Origin: Cytophagaceae bacterium
Lineage (GTDB): Bacteria; Bacteroidota; Bacteroidia; Bacteroidales; Marinilabiliaceae
Direction: 5' to 3'
DNA: 33,917 nucleotides
NCBI GenBank assembly: GCA_031285765.1
Contig: JAITVO010000210.1
Span: forward strand, 1 to 33,917
The notes under the pieces are model-generated. The model was not told the origin of the DNA, did not search any database, and was given only the letters and a program-made list of their open reading frames with translations. Each line of letters begins with the position of its first letter. Position 1 is the first letter of the stretch. This document shows, one piece after another, positions 18,257 to 22,074 of this stretch. Position numbers and translations under genes: made by a program.

Positions 18257-18270
18257 AAAATTGGATCAAT

Positions 18271-18396
18271 TATACTCAAACAGAATTGATTTGAGTATAA
18301 AAGCAACAAGGGGATTAATCCCCTTGTCAATAAATAAAACTGAACAGTTAAAACTCAAATTCTCTGTTATTTGCAAACCATTTTTGTTTGAGTATA
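18271..18396 (-). repeat. Intergenic palindromic element, family TATACTCAAACA, copy 1
   Basis: 126 bp bounded by TATACTCAAACAGAATTGATTTG and CATTTTTGTTTGAGTATA; central perfect 22-bp palindrome ACAAGGGGATTAATCCCCTTGT at 18306-18327; inverted relative to copies 2 and 3. Confidence 0.82.
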
Positions 18397-18477
18397 AGTA
18401 TATAATTGCTTCAACCATCAAAAAACGAAGCGCCAAAACAAAGTGTTTTAGCGCTTCGTTGCAATATCTGTTGTCTT

Positions 18478-20421
18478 CTATTTCCGCTTTTTCTTCAGCA
18501 GTTTGCTGTTGAAGACGGGATTGTATTTGTTCCTCAGACTTTTAATCCACTCGGTTTCGAGCAAGGTTTGATAGCTGTTCATTACGTCGCCTTTGCAGTT
18601 TTCGTAAGGGATAACTGCGCCTTTTTCGATATTACCCTGCCAGAACACTACGCCCGTTGCGTTTTTCAGTTCGTTGTCGTCGGGCAGTAATTCGGCTTTT
18701 ACTGGATTGTCAGCAACGCTTTTCGCGAAAGCGTGAGTTCCTGTTATGCACTTGCTGTCGGCTGGCTTTTTGGCATACTTCATAACGATGTCGCTGATGT
18801 TTGCGCTCGGATTTTTGGCAACAGCCTTACTTATTTTGGCAATCAGTTTTTCGTTGTTCACGTAGCACTGCGTACCTGTCAGTTGCGAGTATTCAACAAA
18901 CTCGGGCGAATAGTTCAAATAATGTTCGTACAGCGCTACGGAGTCGGTTCCTACTTTTGCCCAAATTTCCTGATTGCTTAATTCAAAAATCAGCAGCCCG
19001 TCGTGGTACTCATTGGCAAGATAGCGATAGGCAGGATTGCGTTCGGGCAACTTTTTCCGTTCAACTTCCATTACGGTTTCCGAAACTTTTTTGTCCAGCG
19101 CTTTTTGCAGGGCAACTGTTCCTTCCTGAACCAGAAACGAGGCGTCGTTTTTCAGATATTCGACGAAATCACTGACCGTAACTTTGGCGTCGTCGTATTC
19201 AAACAGGATTTGAGTGGTGGCGGTAATCTTCCCAAAATAGTCGTCCTTATTTTTTATTTCGGAATTGAGTGGCGCCGAAAGGGTGCTGAATACTTCGCCG
19301 TTTAAGCGGTAAAGCGGACTCTTTTTGCGGGCTTCAACAAAAGCCACATTGCCTGCCTGTCCGCGTTCGTCGCGTGCCAGCATGGAGCTGATGGAGGGGT
19401 GGGCGGTTTGATAATCTTCGACAGGCGTGAGTTCAAGGCGCTTGATGATGTGCCATCCGAATGGCGACTTTACAGGCTCGGAAACATCGCCGTCGTTTAC
19501 AAGTTCAAAAGCGGCATCTGAAAACACGGGAATCTGTCCGTAGTTAAACGGTTGCATTTCGCCGCTGCGCGCTGCGCTGCCACGGTCGTCGGAATGTTTC
19601 TGTGCAAGCTCGGCAAAATCGGCTCCAGATTTAAACGCTGCGTAAATTGAGTCAATGCTCACTTTCATCGCTTCTTCAATTTGGGGTGTAACATCGCGCG
19701 GAAATATCTTCATAATGTGGGCTACGCGAATTTTGCCTGTATTGGGGCGCACATCGTGCACTTTAAGTATATGATAGCCAAACTGCGAGCGTACAATTTC
19801 GGACACTTCGCCTACAGGCGTACTGAATGCAGCTTTCTCGAAAGGATAAACCATCTGGAATGCGGTGAAGTAGCCGAGCCGTCCCTGATTCTGGCGAGCC
19901 GACGGGTCTTCGGACTGCGTGGCGGCAATTTCGTTAAAGTCTTCGCCTGCCAAAACACGGTTACGAATTTCTGTGATTTTTTGCCATGCTGCGAGCGTGT
20001 CGGCAGGCGTGGGCGTGGCGCTGCGCGACAATGCTACAAGAATATGGCTTGCATTTACAAGTTTGGTCATATTCGTGTAAGCGCTGCGGGCTGCGGATTC
20101 AACGGCTGCGGAATCAATCAGATAACCCGCTGCCAGCTCGTCGGCATACTTGCCGTATTCCGACACAAAAGCAGGGAGTGTATCCATTTTTTGGTCGATA
20201 GCTGCTACTACTTTCAGTTTGTAATTAATAAAACGTTCGGCAAACTGTTCCGGTGTTTCCTTATAAGAGGACAAGTCCTTATTCTTACTGTAGATATGCC
20301 AAAATTCGCCTTCGGTAAACTTAAACTGCCCGATGGTCAAAATGGTTTCGTCGGGCTTCGATTGCGAAAAAGCCGAAACCATCATCAAGAACAATGCTGA
20401 TAGTGAAATAATTTTCCTCAT
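18478..20421 (-). CDS. PpiC/SurA-type peptidyl-prolyl cis-trans isomerase
   Basis: Two parvulin-like modules (ASHILVAL...SEDPSARQNQGRLGYFTAFQMVYPFEKAAF...FGYHILKV and VAHIMKIFP...SDDRGSAARSGEMQPFNYGQIPVFSDAAF...FGWHIIKRL). Start trimmed to MRKIISLSALFLMMVSAFS. Confidence 0.92.
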   Translation of the reverse strand: MRKIISLSALFLMMVSAFSQSKPDETILTIGQFKFTEGEFWHIYSKNKDLSSYKETPEQFAERFINYKLKVVAAIDQKMDTLPAFVSEYGKYADELAAGYLIDSAAVESAARSAYTNMTKLVNASHILVALSRSATPTPADTLAAWQKITEIRNRVLAGEDFNEIAATQSEDPSARQNQGRLGYFTAFQMVYPFEKAAFSTPVGEVSEIVRSQFGYHILKVHDVRPNTGKIRVAHIMKIFPRDVTPQIEEAMKVSIDSIYAAFKSGADFAELAQKHSDDRGSAARSGEMQPFNYGQIPVFSDAAFELVNDGDVSEPVKSPFGWHIIKRLELTPVEDYQTAHPSISSMLARDERGQAGNVAFVEARKKSPLYRLNGEVFSTLSAPLNSEIKNKDDYFGKITATTQILFEYDDAKVTVSDFVEYLKNDASFLVQEGTVALQKALDKKVSETVMEVERKKLPERNPAYRYLANEYHDGLLIFELSNQEIWAKVGTDSVALYEHYLNYSPEFVEYSQLTGTQCYVNNEKLIAKISKAVAKNPSANISDIVMKYAKKPADSKCITGTHAFAKSVADNPVKAELLPDDNELKNATGVVFWQGNIEKGAVIPYENCKGDVMNSYQTLLETEWIKSLRNKYNPVFNSKLLKKKRK

Positions 20422-20606
20422 AAACATTAAAACTAAATCTGTTATTAAATTAATACTTTGTTTCCGCAACATATAACTCAAAATTGTGGGGTTTTATTGT
20501 AGTGGAGGGTGAAAAATGTAAAACTGCAAGTGTGTTTTAAATTATATACTGATGTTACGCAGGGCATACACACAGTTGCCTTTTCAAGCCAGTGCGTAAC
20601 GTGAGT

Positions 20607-20896
20607 TAACTCAACAGGAAATGAATTGCAAATAACAGGGGTTTTGTATCGTGTTTCAATTGCTGCCATGTACCGGCAATGGGGCATGCCCCATTGTTGC
20701 CTCTGTTCAGTTTTATTTATTGACGAGGCTGTCCAAAAAGAACGCAAATGACACAAAAAACGCAAATTTCTGCAAAAACAACAATAAGCATTTGCTTTTA
20801 ATGTGTTCATTTGTGATATTTGTGTCATTTGCGTTCAAAAAGACTTTTGGGACAGCCTCGTTGCTTTTATTCGCAAATCAATTCTGTTTGAGTATA
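20607..20896 (+). repeat. Intergenic palindromic element, family TATACTCAAACA, copy 2 (interrupted by a nested element)
   Basis: Shares ACTCAACAG(G/A)AAATGAA(T/A)TGCAAATAACAG(G/A)GG, CAATGGGGCATGCCCCATTGTTGC and TTATTCGCAAATCAATT(C/T)TGTTTGAGTATA with copy 3. Confidence 0.82.
20723..20861. mobile_element. Nested MITE-like hairpin element with ends ACGAGGCTGTCC
   Basis: Left arm ACGAGGCTGTCC-AAAAAG-AACGCAAATGACACAAA and reverse-complemented right arm ACGAGGCTGTCCCAAAAGTCTTTTTGAACGCAAATGACACAAA; no ORF. Confidence 0.75.
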
Positions 20897-20932
20897 ATAA
20901 AATAGTGGTTCAAGACCTGTACAGTACCTTTT

Positions 20933-21679
20933 TTATTCCTCATTCTTTTTCTTAGCATCAGCGTGTCCGCGACGCTGCGCAATGCTGTTGTTCAGCAGGT
21001 CAATGCGCTGGTTGAGGCGGCTGATAAAGTTGTCGTACATAGCTATGTCGGCGGCGTTTTCAGTGGCATGGGCTACAATGCACAGCGAGTCTATCAGTTC
21101 AACAAGGGTGCGGTATGCTTCGTCCACTTCCAGACGGACTTCTTTCAACACCAGCTTGGTACGTGTGTTTCCTTCGTCGGCGCGTTCTTCAAGAAGGGTT
21201 TCTACAATACTGTTACGACGTCCCAGTTCGATAATCCATTCACCCAGTTCAAGAGTTGCTACACAGGCGGCATGTTTTAAAGAGAGTTCCTGCAGAAGGT
21301 TGCGCACGGCTGCTATCTCGTCGATGTTCGATTTTTGCGTTACATCTCCGTAGGCATCCAGCACAATCTTCAGGCGTGTGGCTGCTTCACGTTTAAGCGG
21401 ATTGAAATGCGTCAGTCCCGAACGTATGGCATTTGCCAAGCTGCGGAATACATCGTCGCGGTCGCTGTCGGCTTTGTCGATATGAGCTGTGAGCGCACTT
21501 TTGATGATTTTCCGGTATGCTTCATCCTCCTGCGCGTGCAGGGCTGCAAGTACGTTAAACTGTTTTTCGATTCTCAACAGGGCAGCTCCCACGCCCCGTA
21601 TAAGCGTAATTACAAACTCGATGAACTGAAAATGTCCGTCGTTGCGTAGATTGTGTAAGGTAATCTTTTTAGCTTTCAT
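20933..21679 (-). CDS. DUF6261-like protein, function unknown
   Basis: Helical 248-aa protein opening with ITLHNLRNDGHFQFIEFV, resembling Bacteroidetes DUF6261 proteins; family call from memory. Confidence 0.65.
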   Translation of the reverse strand: MKAKKITLHNLRNDGHFQFIEFVITLIRGVGAALLRIEKQFNVLAALHAQEDEAYRKIIKSALTAHIDKADSDRDDVFRSLANAIRSGLTHFNPLKREAATRLKIVLDAYGDVTQKSNIDEIAAVRNLLQELSLKHAACVATLELGEWIIELGRRNSIVETLLEERADEGNTRTKLVLKEVRLEVDEAYRTLVELIDSLCIVAHATENAADIAMYDNFISRLNQRIDLLNNSIAQRRGHADAKKKNEE

Positions 21680-21723
21680 TGTTTTTGTTTTTAATGATCG
21701 GTTTTTATTATATGAAATCGGTT

Positions 21724-21731
21724 CAAAACTA
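21724..21731 (-). promoter_or_regulatory. Putative -7 box (TAGTTTTG on minus strand) of the DUF6261-like gene
   Basis: TAnnTTTG match 45 nt upstream of the start codon. Confidence 0.45.
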
Positions 21732-21737
21732 ATTTTT

Positions 21738-21806
21738 TACTTTCCAAGTATGTGGAAAGTATTTTTCAAACAGTTTTGGTACTTTCCACATACTTGAAAA
21801 CTGTTT
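21738..21806. promoter_or_regulatory. Overlapping inverted repeats upstream of the DUF6261-like gene
   Basis: Perfect 17-bp arms CAAGTATGTGGAAAGTA (21745-21761) / TACTTTCCACATACTTG (21780-21796), plus AAACAGTTTT (21768-21777) in its loop complementary to AAAACTGTTT (21797-21806), plus TACTTTCC (21738-21745) / GGAAAGTA (21754-21761). Confidence 0.7.
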
Positions 21807-21822
21807 TCGGTATATGCTTTGT

Positions 21823-21949
21823 TATACTCAACAGAAAATGAAATGCAAATAACAGAGGTATTCTGTTGTGGCTCAACCGCCGTGCTGCACCAACAATGGG
21901 GCATGCCCCATTGTTGCTTTTATTCGCAAATCAATTTTGTTTGAGTATA
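21823..21949 (+). repeat. Intergenic palindromic element, family TATACTCAAACA, copy 3
   Basis: 127 bp bounded by TATACTCAACAGAAAATGAAATGCAAATAA and TTATTCGCAAATCAATTTTGTTTGAGTATA; perfect 26-bp palindrome CAACAATGGGGCATGCCCCATTGTTG at 21891-21916. Confidence 0.85.
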
Positions 21950-22074
21950 AGCATATCATCAAATTCAAGCGACAAATGTACAATATTTTTTATACAGTTC
22001 TTCTTGACTTGCGAAAAAAAATTTCAACAACTTTCCTGTCAACGTATAGCATGGGAGGAAAAAATCATTAACCA

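Follow-up and report, generated by a model that had tools for sequence, protein, structure and literature searches.

Repetitive extragenic palindromes (REPs) coevolve with the REP-associated tyrosine transposases (RAYTs), and their palindromicity persists through changes of sequence (Nunvar 2010, PMC2817692). In subclass 2.4 of the TnpA_REP proteins (RAYT group 4), which is found in Bacteroidetes, REPs lie in frame within the gene, mostly in the interval between the HuH motif and the tyrosine; the same survey set aside proteins that were exceptionally long, taken to be fused or wrongly annotated genes (Quentin 2018, PMC6006769). REPs with GTAG or CGTC tags occur in open reading frames (ORFs) as well, and REP dimers are found in longer palindromic repeats of Anabaena variabilis (PMC3733652). 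Within the Bacteroidales, BrickBuilt of Porphyromonas gingivalis is described as a miniature inverted-repeat transposable element (MITE) containing a minisatellite (PMC4596501). The present work concerns a contig of 33,917 nucleotides from a Cytophagaceae bacterium of the family Marinilabiliaceae (JAITVO010000210.1 in assembly GCA_031285765.1), hereafter the window, which is contig C290 of a 3.36-Mb genome in 372 contigs that is 89.6% complete. Three copies of a repeat lie between its genes, each with a perfect palindrome of 20–22 bp.

These palindromes appear to be foreign to the transposon proper and are best explained as REP-like units of a RAYT-type domain (IS200-like, with HuH motif and tyrosine) located inside an Eco57I-type type IIG restriction-modification (R-M) enzyme. 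According to this explanation, to which we assign a probability of roughly 0.58, they are hairpins of the fusion enzyme that lack a GTAG foot and were captured and amplified by MITEs.

Miniature transposons and their palindromic modules

The three copies in the window are non-autonomous MITEs of one family, MITE-1, scattered between genes. The element has the terminal inverted repeats (TIRs) TATACTCAAAC/GTTTGAGTATA, a TA target, a length of about 127 bp and no coding capacity, and it is present in well over 100 copies in the genome, where its end motif TTTGAGTATAA occurs 191 times (reversed control, 9). Two subfamilies, A (core palindrome CAATGGGGCATGCCCCATTG) and B (ACAAGGGGATTAATCCCCTTGT), have ~40 bp of their left side and 36 bp of their right side in common, while the middle differs, palindrome included; 93 full-length copies, read from the fetched loci of this genome, comprise 63 B and 30 A. 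The copies avoid genes; of 65 midpoints, 2 fall in ORFs, compared with 61% for random positions. Several MITE-1 copies are nested in the B element at CCAGTTTT-TA-ACTG, where insertion turns the empty site CCAGTTTTTAACTG into CCAGTTTTTATACTC...GAGTATAACTG; the TA duplication so defined rests on these insertions within the genome, at a single site of one repeat, and not on an orthologous empty site of another genome. No parent transposase turned up in the stretches read, although no search was aimed at it. A search of 60 relatives (E ≤ 0.001) gave no MITE-1, the sole exception being its palindrome in genome G006. A known RNA family was rejected, as Rfam gave nothing above threshold, only chance-level microRNA models.

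Copy 1 (18270..18397, inverted) is a full MITE-1 of subfamily B with both TIRs and the perfect, unstranded 22-bp palindrome at 18306..18327. Copy 3 (21822..21950, forward strand) is a full member of subfamily A, whose palindrome is here perfect over 26 bp (CAACAATGGGGCATGCCCCATTGTTG; 21891..21916, unstranded). Copy 2 (about 20609..20898, forward strand) is a mosaic, which consists of an A-type left half devoid of the outer TIR, with the A palindrome at 20677..20696 (unstranded), a B-type block (CTGTTCAGTTTTATTTATTGAC), an inserted third MITE and the shared right end. The third MITE (GAGGCTGTCCAAAAAG...CTTTTGGGACAGCCTC, its ends also given as GAGGCTGTCC...GGACAGCCTC; 20723..20861, forward strand, about 138 bp) is unrelated and occupies the slot of the B palindrome; a free copy, 98% identical, lies at C89:7247-7383, and at C110:2893-3080 a half palindrome (ACAAGGGGAT) is joined to the interior of this MITE. 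The preliminary description of the window had correctly recognized three intergenic copies with common TIRs and internal blocks, but the palindrome types among them number two, since copies 2 and 3 share the A core, at 20677 and 21894.

That description had also pointed out that the 22-mers of copies 1 and 3 differ at positions 5, 9–14 and 18, i.e., in the pairs 5/18, 9/14, 10/13 and 11/12, with Watson–Crick pairing retained in each, which is borne out; it had proposed either selection on a hairpin or cruciform or exchange of the palindrome as a module. The latter is supported by the copies of this genome; selection on pairing as evidenced by compensatory change is not. Among the 93 copies, 38 changes are uncompensated (28 single pair-breaking and 10 of the G-T type) and none is a compensated double change, so that compensatory evolution inside the genome is rejected; non-compensatory changes had been named at the outset as evidence against it. 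Copies 1 and 3 differ as two founder modules do, which explains the symmetry of their differences without stepwise compensatory mutation in this genome. Palindromes of the A and B types and of a third type (ACAAGGGGGCATGCCCCCTTGT) are present in MITE-1, in a second element, MITE-2, and alone. MITE-2 has TIRs (GACTTCTTCGGAAAATAG) unrelated to those of MITE-1 and holds a B and an A palindrome ~23 bp apart, and MITE-1/MITE-2 chimaeras are joined at the palindrome. G006, which belongs to another genus of the same family, has A- and C-type palindromes without any MITE, some of them in frame in genes. Divergence is lower in the palindromes than in their flanks (A, 0.013 against 0.08–0.13; B, 0.021 against 0.03–0.05), a weak comparison because the copies were found by similarity to palindrome-containing elements.

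The B palindrome is found, with up to 2 mismatches, at 155 places in the genome, against 0 for the control; with its 22 bp and this copy number it falls within the size (~20–50 nt) and abundance of REPs. The base preceding ACAA is a purine at 163 of 166 ends, defining a 24-bp unit, RACAA...TTGTY, each single strand of which forms a 9-bp hairpin with a 4-nt loop (folding z = -4.4 for B and -2.5 for A). Hairpins of this kind are the structure bound by Y1 transposases. In a set of 31 distinct 22-mers from Bacteroidales, the pairs 5/18, 9/14, 10/13 and 11/12 are Watson–Crick in 21, 26, 25 and 19, respectively (25% expected); as far as these sequences indicate, palindromicity is kept across species while the sequence itself differs.

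A RAYT domain inside a type IIG restriction-modification enzyme

A RAYT-like transposase had been suggested as a possible partner of the repeat. A RAYT domain was indeed found, but its location is inside an R-M gene. In G006, an ORF of 1333 amino acids studded with in-frame palindromes encodes an R-M enzyme of the Eco57I type that contains a Y1_Tnp domain. The Pfam families Eco57I, N6_Mtase, TaqI_C and Y1_Tnp score above their cut-offs in the fusion (PF01797, Y1_Tnp, in G123, G006 and G382), and the combination of N6-methyltransferase, Eco57I and TaqI_C-type specificity domain in a single protein is that of an Eco57I-like type IIG enzyme. The RAYT domain is positioned between EFPxxF and EYxGGFDVVIGNPPY, directly ahead of methyltransferase motif IV. 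Its motifs are DH[MLIVA]H, W[TA]xK and YI..NR, with the HuH (DHxH) and the YI..NR tyrosine kept in 23 of 23 aligned domains. Sequence matches to the ISDra2 transposase in the PDB are weak; the 29 best structure matches to a model of one fusion RAYT domain are without exception Y1 transposases, among them 4er8, a RAYT–REP complex of the E. coli type, which lends weak support only, as the model is of low confidence (mean pLDDT 43.6).

Altogether 31 fusion ORFs were considered, namely, that of G006, that of the window's genome and the remainder gathered by protein similarity. They contain 68 in-frame palindromes whose arms measure 9 bp or more, distributed over 29 of the 31 genes, whereas codon-order shuffles yield a mean of 3.95 and a maximum of 9. 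The sites recur in a few linkers: the interval between HuH and tyrosine, the position right after the tyrosine helix, the stretch before KRKKDGVFYTP, and the vicinity of the N- and C-termini. The centres vary by species (ATTAAT, GCATGC, ACATGT, TTGCAA, GTTAAC), as do the arms, and pairing holds. In the fusion gene of Bacteroidales TD114a (L185:1537-2238), peptides match at least 4 in-frame palindrome types (DKGINPL, TRGHAPL, NKGACPL, NKGLQPL).

The genome of the window has such a gene of its own. Contig C63 begins within the RAYT domain of a partial fusion gene, and the B 22-mer of copy 1 lies there in frame and unchanged (C63:60-81), encoding SDKGINPLVV 3 residues past YIRNNRIKHGL, just after the tyrosine helix.

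Other candidate partners were rejected. The ordinary RAYTs of relatives (G006 C5 and C17; G011; G039; G010) are flanked by other palindromes, and the IS200 transposase on C299 of the window's genome has its own hairpins, devoid of the palindrome in question. Small ordinary RAYTs (L159, L160, L165, L167, L171) have unrelated palindromes of their own on their flanks (e.g., GAGCGGGATTTGTAATCCCGCTC).

Association of palindrome and fusion across genomes

With pairs 5/18 and 9/14–11/12 left free, the palindrome pattern matched in 35 of 395 genomes of the order (reversed control, 2), and the fusion, called at E ≤ 1e-10, is encoded in 31. The palindrome is present in 23 of the 31 genomes with the fusion and in 12 of the 364 others (table 23/8/12/352; Fisher odds ratio 84, p = 5e-22, a value that overstates the independent evidence because many of the matches sit in the fusion gene itself and the genomes are related). 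As an association the tie is strong, and it parallels that of REPs with a cognate RAYT, with the palindrome in the gene instead of flanking it.

Palindromes also occur in other settings. In G321, a 33-bp palindrome, AGAGATGCCACCTTTT-N-AAAAGGTGGCATCTCT (KEMPPFxKV), lies in frame at corresponding positions of paralogous genes for SpoIIE-like phosphatases (L449, L450), which also have ACAATGGGTCATGACCCATTGT, and an MmeI-type R-M enzyme of G006 that has no RAYT domain (L132:3122-6022) has two, likewise in frame (DKGACPLVD, TRGHAPLSE). Many ACAAGGGGGnnnnCCCCCTTGT palindromes, often adjoining ATATCCCCC blocks, are found in Betaproteobacteria and Nitrospira (L179-L258, e.g., L249).

Proposed origin of the palindromes and alternative explanations

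We propose that the hairpin is recognized by the RAYT domain of the fusion, which copies it or moves it, initially for the most part in or near its own gene, where in-frame units would be tolerated in linkers. Units may then have entered other repeats, MITE-1 and MITE-2 among them, and amplification of the MITEs by their own transposase would have multiplied the palindromes. Once shared, the palindromes could have acted as recombination joints, giving rise to the A/B mosaics and the MITE-1/MITE-2 chimaeras. The anatomy of the MITEs and the sharing of the modules are firm; inferred in this scheme are that the fusion enzyme recognizes and mobilizes the units, in which direction they spread and in what order the events took place. 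Its more general form, in which an R-M enzyme with a built-in RAYT drives its own GTAG-less class of REPs, seeds them in frame in its own gene, in other genes and in MITEs, and changes together with its palindrome between species while pairing is kept, is tentative and has the odds somewhat against it.

Several observations weigh against the fusion enzyme as the source, in addition to the in-gene position of many association matches. Neither GT[AG]G nor CGTC is present at the hairpin foot; the units start with ACAA, and 166 ends give no GTAG consensus. Palindromes occur without a detected fusion in some genomes, e.g., G075, G328 and G311. Certain units of G321 and G111 that lie outside the fusion gene have centres unlike those within it. 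SpoIIE-like genes hold in-frame palindromes of this and of another kind. There is no clean insertion step of 22 or 24 bp: forms with and without a palindrome at the post-tyrosine site can be equal in length. The linkers are too variable to yield an exact palindrome boundary. In the window's genome, C63 covers the fusion gene only from just before the tyrosine onward; neither the HuH half with the N-terminus nor an A palindrome was found for this partial gene, so that the fusion is only putatively active in this genome.

Some of these points would suit an ordinary MITE family of which the palindromes are an internal part, with the fusion genes, rich in long flexible linkers, being merely tolerant targets of another mover. 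The occurrence of palindromes in MmeI-like, SpoIIE-like and glycosyltransferase-like genes and the palindrome-bearing genomes lacking a detected fusion speak for it, as might the MITE-1 transposase that did not turn up in the stretches read. Against it, the MITE was not detected in the 60 relatives beyond the palindrome in G006, and the palindrome recurs in RAYT-fusion genes from many families, where it occupies homologous positions of the RAYT domain; this explanation is unlikely, though it is the strongest of the alternatives. Type IIG genes without RAYT, against which tolerance could be gauged, amount to a handful in the sample, mostly collected because they bear palindromes.

Template switching in DNA (quasipalindrome correction) could create and maintain palindromes without any transposase and change symmetric pairs in one event. 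It would account for a gene of G401 in which the same core is combined with different, fully palindromic outer arms (AGCGATGGAGCATGCTCCATCGCT and CAAGCTGTGGAGCATGCTCCACAGCTTG), and for the forms of equal length at one site; yet many single changes persist uncorrected in the MITE copies, and identical palindromes in unrelated contexts require dispersal besides correction; this route is improbable. Least probable of all is selection of the hairpins as RNA, as bidirectional transcription terminators downstream of genes. The T-rich stretch after the palindromes of copies 1 and 3, their terminator-like scores and the intergenic position of the MITE copies are compatible with this role, but the palindromes of the fusion genes lie within ORFs, where termination would be harmful, and the changes within the family leave pairing uncompensated.

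Significance

RAYTs are thought to move REPs, although debate continues on the manner of spread. In the present case a restriction enzyme contains the candidate transposase as one of its domains, and many species have the presumed substrate in frame within the gene for that enzyme; in the window's genome this presumed substrate has been brought to high copy number by MITEs. The system offers natural enzyme–palindrome pairs for recognition tests and hints at a connection of DNA modification systems with the mobility of hairpins.

Neighbourhood of the copies in the window

The contig around the copies is Bacteroidales-like, with genes for a TonB receptor, a two-domain peptidyl-prolyl isomerase (PPIase), a DUF6261 protein and an S46 peptidase. 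A strong terminator-like hairpin lies past the PPIase gene (18424-18460), and the DUF6261 gene has an inverted repeat upstream (21738-21800).

Comparison with known systems

The Rickettsia palindromic elements are in-frame palindromic DNA in genes, of about 100–150 bp, whereas the units described here measure 22–24 bp and are tied to a RAYT domain. BrickBuilt is similar in being a miniature inverted-repeat element with an internal repeat module; the present MITEs differ from it, as described, in holding one or two perfect palindromes that are shared with other repeats. The REPs on record within ORFs and in other repeats (PMC3733652) bear GTAG or CGTC tags; neither tag is present here, and the repeats that harbour the units are MITEs whose TIRs are unrelated.

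The resemblance to REP/RAYT systems (TnpA_REP, REPtrons and bacterial interspersed mosaic elements; PMC2817692, PMC8266576) is closer. It extends to palindromes of 20–50 nt in many copies, to palindromicity kept as the sequence changes between relatives, to a Y1 HuH–tyrosine domain in the same genome and to paired palindromes in one repeat, here MITE-2. Unlike in those systems, a GT[AG]G foot is lacking, the RAYT forms one domain within a type IIG enzyme and is not a small flanked gene, and the units are found in frame in the RAYT-bearing gene and within MITEs. Subclass 2.4 shares the in-frame units between HuH and tyrosine, and in-frame REPs in group-4 RAYTs are thus already known; as for the R-M fusion, searches of the open-access literature gave no account of a type IIG enzyme with a RAYT in it, of the GTAG-less palindromes or of the sequence strings. 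While subclass 2.4 is characterized by NH[IFV]H, WQ and YIxNNP and by REPs with a GTAG foot or a double foot, the fusion has DHxH, W[TA]xK and YI..NR, its palindromes have neither foot, and its RAYT domain is joined to an R-M enzyme.

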